Shown: positions 2,429-64,000 of the stretch, piece after piece | How the letters are laid out: each line of letters opens with the position of its first letter | Numbering within the stretch: position 1 is the stretch's first letter | Source of the DNA: Streptomyces dengpaensis | Lineage (GTDB): Bacteria; Actinomycetota; Actinomycetes; Streptomycetales; Streptomycetaceae | NCBI RefSeq assembly: GCF_002946835.1 | Contig: NZ_CP026654.1 | Location: forward strand, 12,610 to 76,609 | Direction of reading: 5' to 3' | DNA length: 64,000 nt | Position numbers and translations under genes: made by a program | The notes under the pieces: generated by a model | The model's input: the letters and a program-made list of their open reading frames with translations, nothing else | What the model was told of the DNA's origin: nothing | Databases searched by the model: none

Positions 2429-2911
2429 CAACGACCGCTCCCACAGGGGGCGGGCCTTGCCGGTCCCCTCGCAGTGGAAGCACTGGCCGCCCCCTGGTGT
2501 GCTGCGGGCGCCGATGGTGCCAATGGAGTCCCGCAGGAGCTGGGTGAGGCCTGCGACGTGGCCGGTGTGCAGCGGCAGTTCCTCTCGCACGGCGATCATG
2601 AGCTCCAGTGCGACGTCGGGCACGAGAGCGTACTCGCCGAACCCGCTGCCCTTGTCGAGGTCGTGCGCCACCGTGCCGAGTACGTCGCGAAGGCTGCGCA
2701 CCGGCTCTCCCTCGAACAGTTCCACCCGCGCAGAGAGGACGATGTCCTCCGGCTTCACGATCGATAGCCGTGCCGCCGGCCGCTCGAACGGCCAGCCGAG
2801 GCCGACCGGATCGGGATGGGTTGCGTGGAGACGGGCCATCGCGTGCCACAGGTCGCCCGGGTCGCCGTTTCTGGCCGGCGCTTCCTTGTTCTGCTGCTTG
2901 CTGGGCCTCAT
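2405..2911 (-). CDS. Hypothetical protein with one CxxC
   Basis: 168 aa, starting MRPSKQQNKEAPARN. The body reads as a compact globular protein (PEDIVLSARVELFEGEPV, VALELMIAVREELPLHTGH). A short C-terminal CFHCEGTGKA resembles half of a DnaJ-type zinc knuckle. No family is recognised. It converges on, and overlaps by 24 bp, the regulator at 1100-2428. Confidence 0.65.
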   Translation of the reverse strand: MRPSKQQNKEAPARNGDPGDLWHAMARLHATHPDPVGLGWPFERPAARLSIVKPEDIVLSARVELFEGEPVRSLRDVLGTVAHDLDKGSGFGEYALVPDVALELMIAVREELPLHTGHVAGLTQLLRDSIGTIGARSTPGGGQCFHCEGTGKARPLWERSLSTGYDVA

Positions 2912-3077
2912 GGCTGCCTTCCGGTTGATGACGTCGGAGTACCTGAGTACGCCGTCGCCAGGGCACGGTGTGCGCCCTGGGCCTTGTCATCCCGCCGGGT
3001 GGCGCGGCGACTTCGGGAGCCGTCCCGCCGGGCGCCCCCGCGACTTTGGCTGCGTCTTGGAGGCGCCCGGGTCAGGT

Positions 3078-4130
3078 CTACTTCCGCACCGGACGGCCGA
3101 CGGTCCACAGGTCGCCGGGAGCGCGGACGAACGCGCCGTGGTCCTGCATGTCCCGCTTCAGCTGCGCGGCGGAGATGATGTGGCCGCGCCGGGCGAGCGC
3201 GTCACGCAGCTCGCCGGGCGTCAGGGGTCGGCCGCAGCGCGCGAGGTACCGGGCCGCGAGCTGCTCGCGGGTGGGATAGACCGGCGGCTCCACCACCAGG
3301 AGCGAGTCGCTGAGCGCCCGGTGCTCGGTCATCCCGGCTTCCGCCAACTCCAGCAGCGGCTTCGCCACACCCCCTGCCTGCGACAGGCGACGTCTCCAGT
3401 TGTCGCGGGTCAGGTAGCCCTGGCGGTGGCACCACCACAGCAGCCCGCCCACGGCGGCCGTCGTGGCCAGCGGGTTGTTCGCGGCGAGGACCACCAGGCG
3501 GTGAACGCCGGCACCGAACAGCTGGAACGCGATGTCGATGAGTTCCAGCGCGTTCGCGGCGGTGGCCTCCAGGCCGGCCAGGCGCAGCATGCACTCCGCG
3601 ACGGGGATCCAGTCGATGACGGCGAGCCCGAAGCGGGAGAAGACGCTGTCCTTGGAGACGATGACGCACGGTCCCAGGAACTCCGCGAGCGCCATGGTGG
3701 GCGCGTCGTCCGGGTCGCCCCGGTGCCGCTTCGGCATCTCCCGGTCGACCCGCAGGATGTGGCGGGTCTGCGGGGCCAGGTGATCGCGGATCTCCAGGTC
3801 GACCACGCGAAGGGCAGGCAGGATCTGCTCATTGAGTACGCGGCGTGCCTGCCGTTCCGGCGCCTCGTGGTCGGCGGCCACCTTGGCGAGGTGTTCGTCG
3901 ATTTCGCCGGGGATGTGCGCGGCGATGTACGGGGTGGCGCGGCCGGTGACGGCCAGCGCGGTGACCCGGTCCGGTCGGCCGCCGTGCTTGGCCAGGGCGC
4001 AGGCTTCGACCAGCAGCGCGTTGGTGTCGAGGACGGGCAGCAGCATCCGCCGGTCCAGCACCATCGGGTTGAACGCCGACCCGGAGGGGATCAGCAGGGG
4101 CGGTGCCGCATCGGCACGGTCGAGCGTCAT
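3078..4130 (-). CDS. PIN-domain protein with C-terminal winged-helix-like region
   Basis: 350 aa. The acidic residues expected of a PIN-fold nuclease are visible: D in LLPVLDTNALLVEA near residue 35, E in IPGEIDEH, and D/D in the VIVSKDSVFSR strand. PIN proteins are metal-dependent RNases, often toxins. Here the protein is long and has a C-terminal tail (PTREQLAARYLARCGRPLT, ALARRGHIISAAQLKRDM) that looks like a small helical DNA/RNA-binding region. No antitoxin-sized partner is adjacent. The next gene upstream in the same direction encodes a P-loop kinase, 71 bp away. Family call fair, role unknown. Confidence 0.75.
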   Translation of the reverse strand: MTLDRADAAPPLLIPSGSAFNPMVLDRRMLLPVLDTNALLVEACALAKHGGRPDRVTALAVTGRATPYIAAHIPGEIDEHLAKVAADHEAPERQARRVLNEQILPALRVVDLEIRDHLAPQTRHILRVDREMPKRHRGDPDDAPTMALAEFLGPCVIVSKDSVFSRFGLAVIDWIPVAECMLRLAGLEATAANALELIDIAFQLFGAGVHRLVVLAANNPLATTAAVGGLLWWCHRQGYLTRDNWRRRLSQAGGVAKPLLELAEAGMTEHRALSDSLLVVEPPVYPTREQLAARYLARCGRPLTPGELRDALARRGHIISAAQLKRDMQDHGAFVRAPGDLWTVGRPVRK

Positions 4131-12869: not shown

Positions 12870-13273
12870 AGGATGCCGCTCCCCATCGGCAACCACGAGA
12901 GCGGCGACGGCCATATTCCCCAGCCAGCCGCCGGGATCCAGACAGATGGACCGCCTCCAGGCGGTGATCGCGCCGCTGATCCTGGGCGCTATGGCGACGG
13001 TTGACGACGTCGTGCGAATACTGCGGGACAGTCAGCCACCCACACCTCACCCGACGCGCCGACCCACAGCAGCCAACTCCACCGCCAACCAGCACACCCA
13101 CTGTCGCGGGAGGGCTGCGTCAACACGCGCTGTGGCAGCGTCATTTCGGGTGTCCACCTGTCGTCGGCGGTTCCTCGTTTCCCCAGCGGTACGCCCGCTG
13201 CGTGAGCCTCAACAGGTGATACGTGAGCCGACTTCCCTCGGAGCGAGCAGCGCGCCTAGTAAAGTTCGGCCGC
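12870..13273. other. Non-coding region upstream of parA
   Basis: About 400 bp between the divergent membrane-protein and parA genes. A short ACCGCC/GGCGGT hairpin lies near 12948-12966. No convincing gene is seen. The tail (AGTAAAG near 13259) could be a -10-like element just before the parA start. Confidence 0.4.
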
Positions 13274-14422
13274 ATGAGCATCCCGAGCCCCAGAGGAGAA
13301 CGAGAGAAGCTAATTACTGCTCTCGCTCCGAAGCTGCGTAGGCACCTGAAGATCCGCGCCTTTGAGCACGGAATGGACATCCAGGACGCGACCGAGCACG
13401 CCATCAAGGCCTGGTACGAAGCCGACGACGTCCCCGAAGTCGACACCGACGGAGCCAAGACCTGGGGGACGTTCCTCCCTGTCGGTGGCCCTGACGAGTT
13501 CAAGGCCGCCTGCTCGGAGCGCGGCATCACCTACGTGCAGGGGCTCGCGCAGGCGTTGACTCTGTGGCTCGGTAACCATCCCTCCCCCACGACCCCGTTG
13601 GTGTCGCAGCCGGTCGTGCGGGTCATAGTGGCCAACCAGAAGGGCGGCGTCGGCAAGACGTTCATCTCCTCCGGCATTGCCCAGGCTCTCGCGGAGGCTG
13701 GCCGTCGCGTCCTGATCATTGACTACGACCCGCAAGGGCACCTCACTGCCGAGCTCGGCTTCGAAGACCTCATGTACGAGGACGACGTCGAGACGCTGAT
13801 GATGCACATGGACGGCACCGCGAAGGGTGACATCCACGACCTGCTGGTCGCCTTGGACCAGGAGCGCTTCGGTGAGCGGCTGCACCTGCTTCCCGCGTCC
13901 GACGACGCGTTCCTCCGGGATGTCGCCCTGTCCAAGGTGAGCTTCAGCGAGGCCGCCTTGGAACGCGCTCTGGAGCCGCTGGAAGAGGACTACGACGTCA
14001 TCATCATCGACGGTCCGCCCAGCCTCGGTCTGAACATGGACACCGCCCTGTATTACGTGCGCCGCCGCGAGGGTGAACTAGCGGACCGATCAGGCGTCAT
14101 CACCCCGGTCTGGGCAAACAAGGCGTCCCACCGCGCCTTCCGCCTGCTGAAGTCCCAGAAGGACGACCTGTGCAAGAAGGGCCGGATCCAGGTCGACTAC
14201 CTGGGTCTGATCATCAACGCGTACGACAGCCGCCGCGGCAAGCTCGTCAAGGAGAACAAGGATGAGTGGGAGAAGAGCAGTTCCCCCGCTGTTCTGGCGG
14301 TGATCGGCGACCTGAAGGAAGGCCGCGAGGCCGCTGACGGCGAGATCCCGCTGCTTGAGTACGCACCGGACAGCGAACATGCGCAGGCAATGCGCGACCT
14401 GGCGAAGGAACTGGCGGTATGA
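13274..14422 (+). CDS. parA: ParA-family partition ATPase
   Basis: 382 aa. The deviant Walker A of ParA/Soj ATPases is exact (KGGVGKT at 123-129). It is followed by RVLIIDYDPQGHLT and the Walker B-like DVIIIDGPPSLG. ParA moves plasmid copies apart on the nucleoid by ATP-dependent binding, stimulated by ParB. The first ~100 residues (ALAPKLRRHLKIRAFEHGM) are an extra helical, possibly ribbon-helix-helix, DNA-binding domain, as in type Ia/Ib ParA proteins that autoregulate. An in-frame GTG at 13223 would add 17 residues. The stop overlaps parB by 4 bp. Confidence 0.9.
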   Translation: MSIPSPRGEREKLITALAPKLRRHLKIRAFEHGMDIQDATEHAIKAWYEADDVPEVDTDGAKTWGTFLPVGGPDEFKAACSERGITYVQGLAQALTLWLGNHPSPTTPLVSQPVVRVIVANQKGGVGKTFISSGIAQALAEAGRRVLIIDYDPQGHLTAELGFEDLMYEDDVETLMMHMDGTAKGDIHDLLVALDQERFGERLHLLPASDDAFLRDVALSKVSFSEAALERALEPLEEDYDVIIIDGPPSLGLNMDTALYYVRRREGELADRSGVITPVWANKASHRAFRLLKSQKDDLCKKGRIQVDYLGLIINAYDSRRGKLVKENKDEWEKSSSPAVLAVIGDLKEGREAADGEIPLLEYAPDSEHAQAMRDLAKELAV

Positions 14423-15528
14423 GGAACACCAGCAAGAAGAAGGACGGCCAGCCGCGGGTCACACGCGGCTTCAGCATGGATGAGGATGCGGCAGGCGGAG
14501 AGCAGGAATCTCCCCGGCGCATCCGGACGCGCACGCAGATCATGAACGGCGAGGGCAAGCGGCCCCCCGCTGCGGTGGAACTGAGGCTGCTGGCCCACAA
14601 CCCGTTCAACCCGCGCGAGCAGCTCACCAACATCGAAGAAACCGCGGAATCCCTGCGGGCTAAGGGACAGATCCAGCCCGTCACCGTGGCACGGCGAGCT
14701 GCCTTCCTGGCGGCGCACCCCGGGCAGGAAGACGCGCTTGGTGAAGCTGAGTACGTCGTCATCGACGGCAACCGGCGCCTGGCATCTGCCCATCTGGCCG
14801 GCCTCGAAGAGCTGCGGATCGACGTCAATGACGATCTCGCGGTGAGCGCTGCGGACATCCTGGAGTCCGCCCTGATTGCCAACATCCACCGCGAGGATGT
14901 GCCCCCGCTCGATCAGGCCCGAGCGATCCAGGAGCTGCTGGTCAAGCACAAAACGCAGGTGACGGTAGCCAAGCGGCTGGGCAAGACGGAAGCTTGGGTG
15001 TCCCAGCGTCTCGCCCTCCTTGAGCTCCCCGAAGACCTGCAGGAGAAGGTGGAGTCGAAAGAGCTGACGGTTAAGGACGGGCGCCGTATCGGGCGTCTGC
15101 CCAAGGATCAGCAGCGACCCGAGGCAGTCAAGGCTCTTAACCGGGTTAAGACCCCTCGCAAGCCGCGCGGTAAGGCCACCGCCCCTGTTGAGAGCGGCAC
15201 GCCGGTGCCGGAGAACACAGGCGCTGCTCTGCCCCACCAGGTGTCTACCGAAGGGGGGACGCCTGCGACCGCTCTTAACCCGGTTAAGACTCCCGCCCAA
15301 GATGCCGACTCTGACTCGGACGCGACGGAGCAGAGTGAGACCGGTGAGTCGAAGCGGCTGCCGTATGACGACGCCATCTACATCGTCCAGCACCTGCATA
15401 CGAAGATGACCACCGACAACTTCGTGCAGGGTGCGCGCTTCTGGATGGCAGTCCTGCACGATCAGCACCCTGAGGAGTACCGAGCGCTCCTGCTCGAACT
15501 GTCCCAGCAGGAGCAGCAGCCGGCCTGA
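14419..15528 (+). CDS. parB: ParB-family centromere-binding protein
   Basis: 369 aa, coupled to parA by ATGA. The ParB/Spo0J CTPase core (NPFNPREQLTNIEETAESL, YVVIDGNRRLASAHLAG, ESALIANIHREDVPPLDQA) is followed by the HTH (LGKTEAWVSQRLALLELP). The C-terminal linker contains the near-identical peptides LNRVKT and LNPVKT. These are coded by two 15-bp palindromes (15136 and 15274) that also occur just after the gene (15553) and look like its own parS sites. The last ~90 residues probably dimerise. Confidence 0.9.
   Translation: MRNTSKKKDGQPRVTRGFSMDEDAAGGEQESPRRIRTRTQIMNGEGKRPPAAVELRLLAHNPFNPREQLTNIEETAESLRAKGQIQPVTVARRAAFLAAHPGQEDALGEAEYVVIDGNRRLASAHLAGLEELRIDVNDDLAVSAADILESALIANIHREDVPPLDQARAIQELLVKHKTQVTVAKRLGKTEAWVSQRLALLELPEDLQEKVESKELTVKDGRRIGRLPKDQQRPEAVKALNRVKTPRKPRGKATAPVESGTPVPENTGAALPHQVSTEGGTPATALNPVKTPAQDADSDSDATEQSETGESKRLPYDDAIYIVQHLHTKMTTDNFVQGARFWMAVLHDQHPEEYRALLLELSQQEQQPA
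15136..15150. promoter_or_regulatory. parS-like palindrome 1 (inside parB)
   Basis: CTTAACC-G-GGTTAAG, a perfect 7-bp-arm palindrome with flanking CT/AC shared with the other two copies. It is AT-rich against a very GC-rich background, which argues for selection on the DNA. Confidence 0.7.
15274..15288. promoter_or_regulatory. parS-like palindrome 2 (inside parB)
   Basis: CTTAACC-C-GGTTAAG, preceded by GCT and followed by AC exactly as in copy 1; 138 bp from copy 1. Confidence 0.7.
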
Positions 15529-46733: not shown

Positions 46734-48227
46734 ATGAGCGCCGTGGCGGCACCGGCCGCCGCGACGATTCCCACTGCGCGTTCGTCGGTCGACGACGTCG
46801 CGGTCTCCGTGTTGCCCGCGTTGTACGTGCCGGAGGCGTCGCAGTGGCTGTCGACGTCGACGGGCCGGATCGCGCTGGACGGCTACTCGTGGATGCAGGC
46901 GGTCCACTGGGTCGCCGGGTCCGGGCTGTACCGGCCGCGGCGGTACCGGTCGCACGGGCCGCGCTCATTCGGGCCGACGACCGTGCGCGTCGCCCAGGAG
47001 CTCGCGCAGCTGTTCCCGTGCCGTCCGGGCATCGAGTACCTGGTGCGCCGCACCGGCCTGTCCGAGCGGTCGGTGGAGTACCACCTGGGGATGCTGCGGG
47101 AGGCTGGGCTGCTCGCGTACATCGTGCGCGGGACCCGGGTGTCCGGCGAGACGGCGCAGGCGAGCGAGTTCGCGCGGATGATCCCGACCGAGTTCGACGC
47201 CGCGCTGGGGATCCGCACGGTGCTGCGGGATGAGAAGGCGCCCGCGTACACGCGTGCGGTGACCGGGATCGCGGAGGCCGGCCGGGAGCTGATGGCCAAG
47301 CTGGCGAAGAAGGCCGCCCGGAAGGTCCGCAAGCCGCGCTCGAAGACGTCGTCGAAGGCCCCTGCGAGGGGTGCCCGGAAGGGTGCTGACCAGGGGGTTG
47401 TGACGGCTGTTTCGGATGAGGTCCGTTGCACCCCAATGCAGGTCGGTACCTCAGCGCTTTCGACTGCCGGTACTACTTCTCTCCCCCCTGAGAGCAAGCT
47501 CGCAAGCGGGGTCAGCAAGTCCCCCACCCCGAAGAAGTCCAAGGCCGGCGGTCGCCGGAAGCTGAACACAGTCGGCCGCCGCTACCAGCTGGCCCGCGAG
47601 CTCACCCAGGAGCTGGACTGGCTGCGCGGCTGCTCGGTGCCCCGGATCGCCTGGGTAGCCCGCAGCGTCGCTGATGCCGGATGGACCGTGACCGACGTGA
47701 AGGCCTGGCTGCACTTCCGCGGCGAGGCGGCCCACGTCCGTCGGGGCTCCGGCCTGCTCGCCGTGCTGCTCGCCAACGCGGTGACGGTCCTGGACACCCC
47801 CGCCAAGCGTGCCGACGCCATCGAGCAGTGGCGCGGCGCCCAGGAGGCCGCCCGGCGTGACCGCATCCGGCAGGTCCGCGCCCGCACCGAGCGGTACGAC
47901 GGCGACTGGCGGGCCCCGGTCAGCCGCTCCGTCCAGCTCGAGGTCGAGGCCGCTATCGCCCAGGTCAGGGAAATGGAGCACGGCGGCCGCCACCAGGACC
48001 AGGACCACGCCGTCGACGGCCAGGACGCGGGACTGGAGCTTGGCGGCGAAGAGCTCGCCGCGCTGATCGCCACAGCCGAGGGCGAGCTGATGCAGGGCGA
48101 GACGACGCTGATCGACGGCTTCGACAAGGAGACGGCGCTGCGGATCTTCGGCGAGGAACTGATGCGCACCGCCCGCCGGATCGAACGCCTCGCCAACAGC
48201 TCGCTGACAACCATCCGACACCGGTAG
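46734..48227 (+). CDS. Candidate plasmid replication initiator (HTH)
   Basis: 497 aa. After ALYVPEASQWLSTSTGRIA and YSWMQAVHWVAGSGLYRPR comes a winged helix-turn-helix (VAQELAQLFPCRPGIEYLV, RTGLSERSVEYHLGMLREA). A low-complexity hinge follows (about 195-280). A C-terminal helical domain (RYQLARELTQELDWLRGCS, IAWVARSVADAGWTVTDVK) resembles the tail of replication HTH proteins. The hinge is coded by an ~86-bp element (47426-47511) also found as an inverted pair at 60.2/60.6 kb. Position before a DciA-like gene and after DnaA-box motifs supports a Rep role. Some Streptomyces linear plasmids carry iterons within rep. Not proven. Confidence 0.65.
   Translation: MSAVAAPAAATIPTARSSVDDVAVSVLPALYVPEASQWLSTSTGRIALDGYSWMQAVHWVAGSGLYRPRRYRSHGPRSFGPTTVRVAQELAQLFPCRPGIEYLVRRTGLSERSVEYHLGMLREAGLLAYIVRGTRVSGETAQASEFARMIPTEFDAALGIRTVLRDEKAPAYTRAVTGIAEAGRELMAKLAKKAARKVRKPRSKTSSKAPARGARKGADQGVVTAVSDEVRCTPMQVGTSALSTAGTTSLPPESKLASGVSKSPTPKKSKAGGRRKLNTVGRRYQLARELTQELDWLRGCSVPRIAWVARSVADAGWTVTDVKAWLHFRGEAAHVRRGSGLLAVLLANAVTVLDTPAKRADAIEQWRGAQEAARRDRIRQVRARTERYDGDWRAPVSRSVQLEVEAAIAQVREMEHGGRHQDQDHAVDGQDAGLELGGEELAALIATAEGELMQGETTLIDGFDKETALRIFGEELMRTARRIERLANSSLTTIRHR
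47426..47511. repeat. 86-bp element inside rep (copy R1)
   Basis: Begins TTGCACCCCA, has GTAC at position 21 and CCCCCTGAGAGC near 58, ending GCTCGCAAGCGGGG. Same marks at matching spacing occur in the two copies at 60179 and 60521. It codes for a non-conserved hinge, so DNA-level function is likely. Confidence 0.68.
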
Positions 48228-48236
48228 GAGGCCCAC

Positions 48237-49103
48237 ATGACCGAGACGATCAACCCCACCGAGCAGACCAGCACCAACACGCCGGAGGTGTCCGGCGTCG
48301 ACCTCGCCCGGGTCGCCCTGCGCCAGGCCAGGGAGGCCGCCAAGAAGCGCGGCGACAGCGAGGCCCGCGCCCCGCGCCGCCGCCAGCAGACAGCCGTACG
48401 GCGCGACGGCCGGGAGCCGAGCGGGTTCGCAGCGGTTCTCCAGGGCTTGATGGCCGACCGGGCCTGGGAGGTTCCGGCCGCGGGCGGCACCGTCATGGAC
48501 CGCTGGCCCGACATCGCGGCCGCCATCTCCCCGAAGCTGCCCAGCCACGTCAGTGCCGTCGCCTACAACCCGGCGGCCCGGCAGCTGGACCTGCGCCCCG
48601 ACTCGCCCGCCTACGCCACCCAGCTCCGGCTCATCACCGCCCGGATCATCGCCACGGCGAACAACGCGGTCGGCACCGACGCCGTGCACACCATCCGCGT
48701 CCTGCCCTCCGGCGCCGCCCCCGCACCCCGTACGGCGCAGCCCGCCCCGGCGGCAGCGGCGACGTCCGAGGCGCCGGTGAAGACCCGGGAGACGGCATCC
48801 GCGGGCTACCACCAGGCCCTCGCCGCCCACCAGACCGCCGCGCCCCCCAGCCGCATCGACCCGGGCATCGCGGAGGCAGTCGCCCGGCAGACCCGCGCGA
48901 TGCGTGCGCTCAGCCAGCGTGCCTTCCCCGAGCCGCCGGACGACGCGCCAGCCACGATCGAGATGGCCCGTGCCCAGCGCCGCCGCCAGGCCGCAGCGAC
49001 CGAGGCCGCCGCCCTGCGCCGGGCCCGGCAAGAGCGCGCGGCCCGGAAGTCCGGGACGTCGGCCGACGCCCCGGAGTCGGCTTCGCTGCGGACCACGGCC
49101 TGA
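48237..49103 (+). CDS. DciA/DUF721-family helicase-loader-like protein
   Basis: 288 aa, GGAGG before ATG, 9 bp after rep. SGVDLARVALRQAREAAKK, GFAAVLQGLMADRAWEVPA, VMDRWPDIAAAISPKLPSH and LDLRPDSPAYATQLRLITA follow the order of the DciA fold normally encoded next to recF/gyrB. DciA loads DnaB at the origin in bacteria lacking DnaC. A plasmid copy placed directly after a rep-like gene suggests a dedicated initiator plus loader pair. The C-terminal third is an Arg/Ala helix. Confidence 0.82.
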   Translation: MTETINPTEQTSTNTPEVSGVDLARVALRQAREAAKKRGDSEARAPRRRQQTAVRRDGREPSGFAAVLQGLMADRAWEVPAAGGTVMDRWPDIAAAISPKLPSHVSAVAYNPAARQLDLRPDSPAYATQLRLITARIIATANNAVGTDAVHTIRVLPSGAAPAPRTAQPAPAAAATSEAPVKTRETASAGYHQALAAHQTAAPPSRIDPGIAEAVARQTRAMRALSQRAFPEPPDDAPATIEMARAQRRRQAAATEAAALRRARQERAARKSGTSADAPESASLRTTA

Positions 49104-59646: not shown

Positions 59647-60192
59647 GTGCCGTCCATCGTCCAGGAGCTCTCCGGTCACCGCGATCTCGGCGGTCTGCGC
59701 ACGGTGGTGGAGTGCCCCTTCAAGGCCACCGTGCTCCGCGAAGGCCCGGCGCAGGACTCCGGGCCGGGCGCGTCCTGGCTCGCGTACCTGTGCCCCGTGC
59801 ACGTCGTGGACCTGGACGGGTGGCCCGGCGCCACGGACCACGCCGACAACGGCACGATGCCGTGCGGCACCGTGCTCGACTACCGCTCCGGCGAACAACT
59901 CCTCCAGTCGCACGCCGACCTGTGGCTGACGCCCCTGACTGGCGTCGACCCGGCCGCGTACGGCGGTGTGTGGTCCGAGGTCCTGGACCAGGCCGACCGC
60001 GTGCTGGTTGCCCGGGTCGAAGTGGCTTCGGCCGCCGGCGAGGAGAGCCCGTTGCAGGACATGCTGGTGATGACGGACGTGGCTCGGAAGGCCGCCGCCA
60101 GGGGCGACCTCGGGGTGGCGACAACATCCCTCACGTACTGCGAGACGCTCGCCATGCGCCTGCGGCACGACGGCGGTCTTGCACCCCATTAG
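59647..60192 (+). CDS. Hypothetical protein ending in a long inverted repeat
   Basis: 181 aa, GAAGGAG before GTG. VVECPFKATVLREGPAQDS, WLAYLCPVHVVDLDGWPG and VLVARVEVASAAGE are readable; unrecognised. Its last five codons and TAG stop lie inside the left arm of the 60.2/60.6 kb inverted repeat. Confidence 0.65.
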   Translation: MPSIVQELSGHRDLGGLRTVVECPFKATVLREGPAQDSGPGASWLAYLCPVHVVDLDGWPGATDHADNGTMPCGTVLDYRSGEQLLQSHADLWLTPLTGVDPAAYGGVWSEVLDQADRVLVARVEVASAAGEESPLQDMLVMTDVARKAAARGDLGVATTSLTYCETLAMRLRHDGGLAPH

Positions 60193-60254
60193 TGGTTAGT
60201 ACTGATAGTGCTTCTGGTGCAGGTTGTAGATCCTTCCCCCTGAGAGCGGAGCTC
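60177..60254 (+). repeat. Long inverted repeat, left arm (copy R2)
   Basis: 78 bp, starting TCTTGCACCCCA and ending CCCCCTGAGAGCGGAGCTC; about 70 of 78 positions match the reverse complement of 60521-60597. Also aligns with the element inside rep (47426). Confidence 0.82.
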
Positions 60255-61030
60255 GCAGAACGGGATCCGATGATCTGCCCACACCTGCGACGACGACCTG
60301 CCAGCATCCCGTGCACATGATCCTTCCCGGCCCCGTACGGCCGTCTGCGGCGTTCTAAGGCCCTCCGGGCTCCCGAGCGACGATCAAGACCCTCAAAGGC
60401 GCTCACAGCGCCGCACAGCGCTTCGAGGGCCCCGCGGTGCCTCTGATCCCCTCGGAGCGGTTCACGATCGTCTTGCCGTCGTCGTCCCGTCGCGCTGGTG
60501 CTCTCGGCTGCTCCCGGACCGAGCTCTGCTCTCAGGGGGAAGGATCTACAACCCGCACAGAACCGCTATCTGTACTAACCACTATTGGGGTGCAAGATTC
60601 GTCGCCGATGGCCCCCGTCCTCGAGGGGCGCTGGTGCTCCTGGTGAAGTCCGCCGTTGGTGCCGGTTGCCGTGTGCAGCGGCCTTGCACCCTTCCCGGCC
60701 TGCACGGTGCAGCGGCGTTGCGCAACGGGCTGCTGCTCCTGGTGGTGAAGGGTGCAAGGTCGGCTGCTGCTCGGGGGTCGGGGCCTGTGGCGCAGTATTC
60801 GCACGACCCGTGCGGCCCAAGGGTGCTGCACGGGCAGCAGGCTGGCCTCGGTCGGGCAGCAGCGGGTAGCAACGGGCCCCGGCGAGTTCCCGCTCCCGCG
60901 CGCTGCAACGGGAGTGCCGACCGTCGCGACCGGGACCTGGTCGTGCTGCTCTGCTGCACCGAAACGGTTCACCCGCTGCTCCCGGTTGCTGCTCTCGCTG
61001 CACAGTCGGCAGTCCGTGCAGCGGGCCGTT
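60193..61030. other. Gene-free region with inverted and TTGCACCC repeats
   Basis: 838 bp with no credible gene on either strand. Apart from the 77/78-bp inverted pair, it contains extra TTGCACCC/GGGTGCAA octamers (60684 and 60750) and many GCAGCAG, GTGCAGCGGC and CAACGGG strings. A plausible replication-control or stable-RNA locus. Confidence 0.6.
60521..60597 (-). repeat. Long inverted repeat, right arm (copy R3)
   Basis: 77 bp; reverse complement of the left arm with one gap and about seven changes. The 266-bp spacer carries no gene; no obvious target duplication flanks the pair. Confidence 0.82.
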
Positions 61031-61474
61031 TCACGCGTTCGGGTCGTCTGCGCGGGAGCCGGGGTGGGGCGGCCAGATGGTGCGGGCCCGGCCCGTTCCG
61101 CGGCAGTGCCGGCACTGCCCGGTGATGCCGCGCTCGCCGTCCAGGCCACACTCGTTCGCGGTCGTGAGTTCGGCGAGGGCGGTCAGCCCGCGCACGAGTC
61201 GGGTGTCCAACGGCAGCGTGCCGACGTCCCGGCCGATCGACACCGTCAGGTAGCTGGGCTCCGGTCCGTACCCCGCGAGCTCCGCCTCGATGAGCGCGGG
61301 GAGCTCCGCGGTGAGCAGCTGCATGAGCAGGTCCTCGGAGAGCCGGCGCCCGGCGAGCGGGACGCGGGTGCGGTGCCCGAGGTCGTCGGCGTCCAGCACG
61401 GACAGGAAGACCGTCGCGGTGTCCTCGCGCACCGGCCTGGGTGCGAGCGGGTGGGTGGCCACCACCGTGGTCAA
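61031..61474 (-). CDS. Hypothetical protein with C-terminal CxxC pair
   Basis: 147 aa (TTG at 61474; GTG at 61465 has better spacing from GGAGG). TATVFLSVLDADDLGHRTR, YLTVSIGRDVGTLPL, then CGLDGERGITGQCRHCRGTG, a DnaJ-like zinc knuckle. Unrecognised. Confidence 0.6.
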   Translation of the reverse strand: MTTVVATHPLAPRPVREDTATVFLSVLDADDLGHRTRVPLAGRRLSEDLLMQLLTAELPALIEAELAGYGPEPSYLTVSIGRDVGTLPLDTRLVRGLTALAELTTANECGLDGERGITGQCRHCRGTGRARTIWPPHPGSRADDPNA

Positions 61475-61725: not shown

Positions 61726-61742
61726 TTTCCCCTCCAGGGGAA
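61726..61742. promoter_or_regulatory. TTTCCCC palindrome, site 1
   Basis: TTTCCCCTCCAGGGGAA, followed by CGTTGTACGCG. Confidence 0.75.
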
Positions 61743-61893
61743 CGTTGTACGCGTACTGCAGCACTCGCGACCGCGCCGTTCCCGATGCCGGGAGCCGGCC
61801 CGCGCGGGTCTCGGCAGACGCCGTTCACTGCTCGTGCAGCAGACCGCCCGCTGCAACACGCTGCACGCGCGCTGCACGCTCACGACCTGCGGA

Positions 61894-61910
61894 TTTCCCC
61901 TCTGGGGGAA
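61894..61910. promoter_or_regulatory. TTTCCCC palindrome, site 2
   Basis: TTTCCCCTCTGGGGGAA, followed by CGTTGTACGCG and, like site 1, by CTGCAGCAC. Confidence 0.75.
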
Positions 61911-61992
61911 CGTTGTACGCGCTCTGCAGCACTTCGGGGTGCAGAGCGTGCAGCGCTACCGCTGGTGCTGCCGGTCGGCCACCAGCAGCGAC

Positions 61993-62009
61993 TTTCCCTT
62001 GGAGGGGAA
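61993..62009. promoter_or_regulatory. TTTCCCC palindrome, site 3
   Basis: TTTCCCTTGGAGGGGAA, followed by CGGTGTTCACG. Confidence 0.66.
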
Positions 62010-62105
62010 CGGTGTTCACGGTTCGGGCGAGGCTGTCGGGGAGGTGCAGGTCAGCACGTGTGCCGCAGGCCTCGGGATCGCCCAGAAGCGCACGTCTACC
62101 AGCGG

Positions 62106-62122
62106 ATTCCCTTCTGTGGGAA
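62106..62122. promoter_or_regulatory. TTTCCCC palindrome, site 4
   Basis: ATTCCCTTCTGTGGGAA, degenerate, followed by CGATGTACGCG. Confidence 0.62.
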
Positions 62123-62215
62123 CGATGTACGCGCCCCGGCGGGAAGGCCATGGACACAGCTACGGCGCCGCACCGTAGGGGGTGCGGCGCCGTGTCGCCG
62201 GGTCTGGGGGCCGGG

Positions 62216-62593
62216 TCAGGAGGCGTGAAGCTGCCTGACGGTGGCCAGGGGGGCGTCGGTGTCGTCCGCGGGGCCGGGCGCCGACGGTAGGCCGGTCGCC
62301 TTGGTGCCGAGTCGGTAGAACTTCACGCCGACGGCGGTGTAGGCGAGCTGGAGCCAGCCGTTCTCGGCGAGCCGGCCGATGCTGCGGGAGGCGCTGGTGG
62401 TGCTCAGGCCAACCAGCTTGCCGATGTCCGTGGCCGTGCTGCGCACCGGGTCCCCGATCGGGACGGCGGTGGCGTAGAACATGAGGACCTTGAGGTCGGC
62501 GCCCTGCTTGAGCTGGGACCGCAGAAGAAGGCCGTTGAGCTCGGCGGCCTCCATGAAGCGCGGGGCGAACGGCTCAGCCATAGGCGAGGTCAT
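62216..62593 (-). CDS. Winged-helix DNA-binding protein, downstream member of pair
   Basis: 125 aa, GAAGGAGG before ATG, ATGA overlap with the upstream gene. ELNGLLLRSQLKQGADLKV, TATDIGKLVGLSTTSASRS and IGRLAENGWLQLAYTAVGV are a MarR/RepL-like winged helix. Palindromic sites lie on both sides of the two-gene unit. Could be a replication regulator or initiator. Confidence 0.74.
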   Translation of the reverse strand: MTSPMAEPFAPRFMEAAELNGLLLRSQLKQGADLKVLMFYATAVPIGDPVRSTATDIGKLVGLSTTSASRSIGRLAENGWLQLAYTAVGVKFYRLGTKATGLPSAPGPADDTDAPLATVRQLHAS

Positions 62594-63063
62594 GACGCCT
62601 CCTTCTTCTTCGCCGGCGGGCAAGTGGTCGACGGGTGACGTGCGTGCTTCGTGGCGTTGCGCTGCTGCCCCGAGGTGCCGTCGTACGCCGCCCGGGGGTT
62701 CATCTTGTAGAACTTCACCCGGCCCACCGTCTCCGCCTCCAGGAGGTAGCCCCCTCGATGAAGGTTACCCACTGACGTGCTCACCGCGTTGGGACGCAAC
62801 TCCAGGTTGATGCCGATCTCGCGGAAGCTCTCCCGCAGCGGCTCGTCTCCGGGCGGCGAGTGGAACAGGTAGTAGCTCCACACCAGCTTGTCGTTCTTGG
62901 TGTACCCGCTGTCCTTCTCGTACAGCGCCTTGCCCAGCTTCTTGCTCGCGTTCACGTGCCGGCCGCCGCCGCTCCACGAGAAGGCCTTGTCGTCCTTGTC
63001 GAGCAGCTCCAGCTGGAGGTACTCGCCGGTACTTGTGTTGGCTGCTGGCCTTGCCCGGCCCAT
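62590..63063 (-). CDS. Winged-helix (RepL-like) protein, upstream member of pair
   Basis: 157 aa, GAGGAG before ATG. YLQLELLDKDDKAFSWSGG, DKLVWSYYLFHSPPGDEPL, FREIGINLELRPNAVSTSV, GNLHRGGYLLEAETVGRVK and FYKMNPRAAY follow the order of RepL-type initiators (winged helix ending in Y.xNP), but an ordinary regulator is possible. Three palindromes sit 20-140 bp upstream of its start. Confidence 0.74.
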   Translation of the reverse strand: MGRARPAANTSTGEYLQLELLDKDDKAFSWSGGGRHVNASKKLGKALYEKDSGYTKNDKLVWSYYLFHSPPGDEPLRESFREIGINLELRPNAVSTSVGNLHRGGYLLEAETVGRVKFYKMNPRAAYDGTSGQQRNATKHARHPSTTCPPAKKKEAS

Positions 63064-63082
63064 ACCGCTCCTCACCTCGGGC

Positions 63083-63099
63083 TTTCCCCCAGAGGGGAA
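63083..63099. promoter_or_regulatory. TTTCCCC palindrome, site 5
   Basis: TTTCCCCCAGAGGGGAA, followed by CGATGTACGCG; 20 bp upstream of the gene starting at 63063. Confidence 0.75.
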
Positions 63100-63128
63100 C
63101 GATGTACGCGCCCTGACCGTAACGGGCG

Positions 63129-63145
63129 TTTCCCCTAGAGGGGAA
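63129..63145. promoter_or_regulatory. TTTCCCC palindrome, site 6
   Basis: TTTCCCCTAGAGGGGAA. Confidence 0.75.
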
Positions 63146-63184
63146 TCCGCCACGCCGAACCTGCCCGGAATCACCACATGATCA

Positions 63185-63201
63185 TTTCCCCCCTAGGGGA
63201 A
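63185..63201. promoter_or_regulatory. TTTCCCC palindrome, site 7
   Basis: TTTCCCCCCTAGGGGAA; CCCCTAGGGG core is a perfect palindrome. Confidence 0.75.
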
Positions 63202-63720
63202 AGGTGCGTCCGGATTGATACTCAACTAGCCCTCAGCGATACATCACATGGCCGCTGAGCTGCGACGATTCAAGATCGCTCTAGACGTATCCATCCCACC
63301 GTCACCAGGTGCCGGCCGGACCCGGACGTGGCTGAGGCGGCTTCGCGCGCGGCTCCGTGGGCCCGTGCGGGCCGTGGAGGGCAGCAGCGGCTCTGAGTCT
63401 CGGGTGGTGCCGACCGTGACGAACGACAAGCATCAGCAGGCGGGGCTGGTGTCTGTGGCGGGTTCCGCCGCCCGGCCCGGGGGCCGTTCGGCTCCGGTGC
63501 CTCCGCACGCCGGAATTCCGACTTTCCCCCATCCGGGGTTCCGTTCTTCGGCTGAGGTCCGCAGCTTCCCAATTCGTGATTCCTCGCGTGGATTGATGGA
63601 AGGGAATTCACCCGCTGACGCCTTATCAAAAGACGCAGCCGCAATAGTTAGTTGGGGGGTGTCCCGTGTTTCCGCCAACGGTACATGCTGCATCAACCTG
63701 ATGCACGCGCTACACTAGAA

Positions 63721-64000
63721 CCTGACACGAACGAGCGACCCCCACCCCCGTAGCCAGCCCCGCCCGCGCCAGCGAGCCCCAAGGTTCTGGAGGCGCAGCC
63801 GGAAGGGCCGTCAGGCGGGGGAGCGCAGCGGACCCGCCCAGAGTCCGCAGGACTCCCCAACTCCCCAACGAAAGGCCCGACTAGCCGCACCTGATACCCC
63901 ATCAGTCGCCCGGCGCGCACCGCGCGCCCGCCGCGCCGCGCAGCGGCCGGCCCCACCGGATCCTGGAGCGCAGCGAAGGGATCCGCCCACGCATCGCGTG
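63721..64000. repeat. Telomere-like palindrome cluster
   Basis: Short palindromes with GCA loops: GAGTCC-GCA-GGACTC (63841-63855) and GCCGC-GCA-GCGGC (63935-63947). Others are GGATCC pairs at 63958 and 63979 around GGAGCGCAGCG, and CACGC-ATC-GCGTG ending exactly at 64000. Streptomyces telomeres are built of such hairpins. No gene is seen. Confidence 0.72.

Follow-up and report, generated by a model that had tools for sequence, protein, structure and literature searches.

A putative RepL1/RepL2-type maintenance module with palindromes on both sides near the end of a linear Streptomyces plasmid

The window, a stretch of 64,000 nucleotides, comprises bases 12610-76609 of C3, a linear-plasmid contig of 76,609 bp from Streptomyces dengpaensis; the right ends of window and contig coincide. 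Close to this end, two small overlapping genes for winged-helix proteins lie between two groups of palindromes. What purpose do such a gene pair and its repeats serve so near the end of a linear plasmid? On balance, homology and site distribution point to a plasmid maintenance module of the RepL1/RepL2 type, whose palindrome array beyond the second gene perhaps also binds proteins of other plasmids. The new element is a predicted terminal RepL1/RepL2-like module with putatively cognate palindromes on both sides and, at related ends, an unexpected mixed array. No paper on this pair was present among the literature matches listed, which does not prove its absence from print.

Gene pair and palindromes of the window

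Gene 1 (62590..63063, minus strand) encodes a protein of 157 amino acids, and gene 2 (62216..62593, minus strand) a protein of 125 amino acids. The genes overlap as ATGA and lie 0.8-2.3 kb from the plasmid end, the coupled two-gene unit that the initial annotation had described. Gene 1 is RepL1-like and has homologues on linear plasmids; its alignment to a four-member set headed by the pSHJG1 protein annotated RepL1 reached 99.8% in hhalign (E 1.2e-28, 149 columns). Gene 2, RepL2-like, matched the corresponding RepL2 set at 98.7% (E 2.2e-16, 82 columns). Both labels are depositors' annotation. The families of gene 1 and gene 2 are paralogous (hhalign 99.0%). AlphaFold2 supported the expected winged helices, with a confident model for gene 2 (mean predicted local distance difference test, pLDDT, 82.8) and a winged-helix core between uncertain ends for gene 1 (mean pLDDT 63.9). 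As to the proposed likeness to MarR, gene 2 has weak, sub-threshold MarR/Crp-type Pfam matches and gene 1 has none. Firmicute RepL proteins (PF05732) contain a winged helix and serve plasmid replication. The initial annotation had called the pair RepL-like; neither window protein matches this family at E 0.1, unlike gene 1 of the pair type found on the strain's second linear plasmid, C2, which passed the PF05732 cut-off in three of three pairs tested.

All seven annotated palindromes are present at their places. Three precede gene 1 (63083..63099, 63129..63145 and 63185..63201) and four form an array beyond gene 2 (61726..61742, 61894..61910, 61993..62009 and 62106..62122), all read on the plus strand. 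A motif scan yielded six of them; the last of the array was found by an inverted-repeat search and an extended-pattern scan. The arms are TTCCCC and GGGGAA, and the spacer is N4 and not N3. These sites are termed type A, the only type in the window's own distal array. As annotated, CG(T/A)TGTACGCG follows the palindromes at 61726, 61894, 62106 and 63083; the first two carry CGTTGTACGCG, the other two CGATGTACGCG. The site at 61993 has one arm mismatch and a degenerate right flank, CGGTGTTCACG. The weakest arms are those of 62106 (TTCCC-TTCTGT-GGGAA), which is not among the matches of the TTTCCCC-N3-GGGGAAA scan. Since the sites came from scans tolerating few arm mismatches, the perfection of the arms is partly selected.

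TTTCCCC-N3-GGGGAAA, with up to three mismatches, gave 11 matches (six distinct places, part of them counted in two registers) versus 1.46 expected, and 11 was reached in none of 100 shuffles. The extended pattern with up to two mismatches matched eight times in the 8.7-Mb assembly, the reversed-pattern control not once. Five of these matches belong to this cluster, two lie near a C2 end and one, with two mismatches, is chromosomal. A regulon hub, suggested at the outset, is not supported, the sites of this genome being restricted to the present cluster and a single further plasmid end. Classical tandem iterons are not supported either, with palindrome spacings of 46, 56, 99, 113 and 168 bp and no DnaA box at one mismatch in 59-64 kb. 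The proposed search of other Streptomyces for motif plus gene pair was productive: a similar pattern (at most one mismatch) occurred in 10 of 392 genomes and in none of the controls, and the DNA read for six of the ten (G000, G014, G149, G178, G321 and G335) contained a winged-helix pair. None was seen near the sites in G141, G292 and G358, and the contig of G155 begins at the sites.

An AT-rich stretch extends upstream of gene 1 (63150..63300; AT 0.45-0.46, compared with a 99.9th percentile of 0.47 for windows of 100 bases over the first 60 kb). Directly after gene 2 follows a terminator-like hairpin (62162..62193, minus strand, inverted repeat I24), and similar hairpins follow gene 2 in several relatives.

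Other identities were tried and rejected. A PDB sequence search gave a best E of 0.025. A phage origin was set aside, gene 1 having no match in phage records at E 0.01, as was an RNA element, for which two Rfam hits each stayed under the gathering score. Translated repeats were considered, as some repeats share one open frame, yet the spacing across plasmids is not in multiples of three. The variable base of CG(A/T/G)TG at 40 listed array sites is A in 32, T in 6, G in 2 and C in none (one row being shifted by one base); a reading as start codon was dropped because the sequence after it is not conserved. An operator of a third gene (61031-61474) was abandoned too, that gene not being common to the loci compared.

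Site types across related pairs

The palindrome sequence tracks the pair type: type A accompanies the pair of the window, type B that of plasmid pFRL1, type C that of C2, and TTGCCTATAGGCAA the distant pairs. It is chiefly this co-variation that suggests binding of the palindromes by the pairs, probably by both proteins of a pair. Upstream of gene 1, the loci scanned contain only their own type among A, B and C.

Ten A-type loci were compared. Three A sites precede gene 1 in eight (the window, L009, L010, L011, L012, L013, L071 and L072), two in L014 and, at up to one mismatch, none in L028. The arms are perfect in 25 of the 26 tabulated upstream sites, from a scan that allowed one mismatch, and the centres vary. 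Each of the three upstream positions has its own conserved right flank. Two to four more A sites lie beyond gene 2 in all eight loci with three upstream sites; here the right half, GGGGAACGATGTAC, is better conserved than the left. On four complete records the sites are located at most about 2.3 kb from an end. The pair of NBC_00028 lies about 5 kb from an end, and NBC_01298 has two facing copies about 8-12 kb from the record end. The facing pair copies in L012 (10548-14024; about 96.1-99.6 kb of NZ_CP108417) have the look of fused ends or of a folded-back assembly. L071 has one additional inverted site.

Pairs of the pFRL1 type are flanked by B sites (TGTTCT-N8-AGAACA), upstream of gene 1 as well as past gene 2, in all 12 of 12 separate loci (pFRL1, L066, L083, L084, L092, L093, L094, L098, L099, L101, L102 and L103), some of which are incomplete and ten of which came from B-site searches. 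By source, nine B-type loci were obtained from the B-site search and two more from the A-B pattern, one of these being also the L066 contig; L088 was excluded, its gene 2 being a fragment of only 44 residues. The B pattern was detected in 19 of 392 genomes and its reversed control in one. Nine of the 19 B loci hold a pFRL1-type pair, four another pair or a fragment, and six none in the DNA examined. An element G (ACGGTA-N10-TACCGT-like) accompanies the B sites before gene 1.

C-type sites (ATGTGTCA-N4-TGACACAT-type, up to three mismatches) were identified upstream in four of five pairs scanned (C2, L070, L074 and L082); none was found at this threshold upstream of the L030 pair. Upstream of the SAP1 pair lie TATCACCC/GGGTGATA palindromes. 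Distant pairs, about 43-46% identical to gene 1 and located on circular and linear plasmids, have at least two TTGCCTATAGGCAA-type sites (up to two mismatches) near gene 1 in all six loci. With this rule from palindrome to pair, terminal modules can be assigned to subtypes by their sequence.

The terminal pair of pFRL1 (NC_010851) resembles that of the window: it is of winged-helix type, lies 1.1-2.2 kb from the end, has three palindromes upstream and two downstream, and shares the conserved non-coding stretch at window 60600-60870. It differs in protein subtype and in palindrome sequence. Two mapped internal origins are reportedly present on pFRL1. The replication-initiation pair annotated RepL1/RepL2 on S. 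hygroscopicus pSHJG1 has in common with the window the overlapping genes, the homology of both proteins and a non-coding upstream region with repeats. It differs from the window pair, which lies near a plasmid end and has another group of palindromes past gene 2; in the six distant-pair loci on other plasmids, sites of the own type were not seen on that side. The RepL1/RepL2 pair of S. rochei pSLA2-L, counted with the same system, has reportedly been studied by experiment.

A replication role weighed

The guess of a replication or copy-control system is supported at the level of profile homology to pairs annotated RepL1/RepL2, not of function. Binding of the pair proteins to the palindromes before gene 1, one of which lies about 20 bp before the start codon, would repress the operon and could also mark an origin in the neighbouring stretch rich in AT (about 0.46). 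Binding beyond gene 2 might provide a further contact region by which initiation is limited or coupled, comparable to copy control of the iteron type. In the iteron-controlled theta plasmids pWTY27, pFP11 and SCP2 of Streptomyces, Rep proteins bind to repeats or to non-coding sequence next to the rep genes (PMC3583192). The window is comparable in this respect and differs in that its sites are spaced palindromes flanking the genes, and its proteins small winged-helix paralogues.

The guess fits less well with a second candidate initiator locus at 46734-49103. It comprises a candidate initiator gene (46734..48227, plus strand) with a helix-turn-helix match below cut-off, at a distance of about 0.9 kb from where the cumulative GC skew peaks, and a gene of the helicase-loader-like DciA family (48237..49103, plus strand; Pfam DciA 33.4 bits, cut-off 24). 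The internal genes on C3 were called with a simple home-made gene caller. In tblastn (E 1e-3), relatives of the internal rep-like or DciA genes of C3 are absent from a linear plasmid of 36.9 kb that carries a C-type pair, which speaks for a replication role of the pair; an unrelated initiator could sit among its hypothetical genes. The absence of the rep-like gene is weak evidence, because NBC_01136, which has DciA, also shows no relative. Also in favour of such a role, C2 and C3 coexist with internal rep-like and DciA proteins that are 84% and 83% identical, respectively, and with unlike terminal pairs.

Several observations weigh against a terminal maintenance module. The internal rep-like and DciA genes lie near the cumulative skew maximum at 58.4 kb of C3, and origins of Streptomyces linear plasmids are placed centrally in two papers (PMC3583192; PMC13152386). 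A scan of 59-64 kb with one mismatch to TTGTCCACA, the DnaA-box consensus, found no DnaA box. Structure comparison indicates that winged-helix folds are generic. NBC_00663 (L028; 62% identity to gene 1) has no A site at up to one mismatch in 6.6 kb, and in NBC_00028 two sites precede gene 1 but no array was seen. Some ends have A sites and no pair close by, and the array of the window lacks the sites of other plasmid types.

An ordinary autoregulated pair of MarR-like repressors, with the palindromes as operators and no role in replication, is unlikely. The palindrome close to the start codon, the weak MarR/Crp-type matches of gene 2 and the generic fold would suit it. It accounts less well for surroundings and kinship: the gene at 61031-61474 beyond the array has no relative in the other loci compared, the predicted neighbour on C2 reads towards the array, and many relatives among the matches listed are annotated as replication proteins, an annotation that is not proof.

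Mixed distal arrays and plasmid ends

Beyond gene 2, related loci combine site types. At least one A or B site was detected there in six of six C-type loci (L019, L030, L070, L074, L082 and L086), those of L074 being degenerate A sites and those of L086 B sites that might belong to a further pair-like gene. A B site occurs beyond gene 2 in three of seven scanned A-type loci (L009, L010 and L072) and is absent from the window, L011, L013 and L071. Of the four B-type loci whose arrays are mostly covered, L066, L083 and L084 contain A sites there and pFRL1 has none. In L083 and in L078, which is the L066 contig, the succession of A, B and G repeats itself over units of about 125 bp. The same scans of 268,319 bases of internal plasmid DNA gave one A site and no B or C site. 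In an alignment of seven arrays (three of type A, two of type C, one of type B and one of unknown pair), 78% of 58 site columns are invariant versus 27% of 120 flank columns, a contrast that is partly built in because the arrays were chosen for holding sites. A scan of GTDB 220, each species represented by one genome, found A and B sites next to each other at seven loci, every one in Streptomyces. A perfect 32-base palindrome, CGCGGAACATCGCAGATCTGCGATGTTCCGCG, occupies 9422-9453 of L019; related sequences are present at other plasmid ends.

Tentatively, the arrays may hold sites for their own pair and for the pairs of other plasmid types, so that co-resident linear plasmids might bind, limit, exclude or serve one another's ends. 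The A-type pair of C3 would then bind the A sites in the C2 array at 89,525 and 89,648 of C2. This would amount to a testable sequence code for how linear Streptomyces plasmids regulate their copy number and how they tolerate or exclude one another. It would also go some way to explaining unlike protein pairs at the same place near the ends. Co-residence tables were considered for a tendency of one strain's plasmids, among the matches listed, to carry unlike pairs. This pattern is not relied on, because two replicons of NBC_01243 have similar pairs with the same spacing.

Duller alternatives are that mixed arrays are relics of module exchange, or that an unrelated factor binds the A sites. That a host protein or one of another plasmid, instead of the pair, binds the sites of the array, the mixture reflecting this factor or past exchange of modules, is rather improbable. 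It would fit A sites that lie next to four pair types and also at ends without a nearby pair, and the flank CGATGTAC, which is kept in the array but upstream at just one position of three. The B-type loci are not accounted for by a single common factor, because their upstream and array palindromes change together from type A. A partition (centromere) system like that of winged-helix TubR with its iterated sites is very improbable. TubR is one of many winged-helix folds scoring alike, C3 has ParA/ParB genes at 13223-15528, and no partner nucleoside triphosphatase was found, the nearest predicted gene (61031-61474) having no Pfam match and the open reading frames on the telomere side not having been scanned singly.

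The left end of C3 starts with CCCGCGGAGCGGG, the outer 66 bases are missing from the right end, and the two ends match at 97.7% over 351 columns; the right terminal inverted repeat, without these 66 bases, spans 63651..64000. C2 (92,208 bp) carries CCCGCGGAGCGGG at both ends. L029 (at 4846) and L069 (at 9538) have a palindrome flanked on each side by CGATGTACGC, accompanied by two upstream-type A sites, without a pair. In the plasmids of NBC_01766 and NBC_01267, a C2-type pair is situated at the end opposite to such sites.

Further inwards, a conserved non-coding stretch (60600..60870) recurs on many linear plasmids, SAP1 and pFRL1 among them, at 2-4 kb from their ends, in a listing of 40 of 67 records in which some of the places are internal. 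Two adjoining inverted-repeat pairs of about 40 bases, 90-95% complementary, enclose about 264 bases at 60177-60597 and look like the remnant of a small transposon. A long inverted repeat at 2625-3101 of pFRL1 contains a CCCCCTGAGAGC stretch similar to one in this region.
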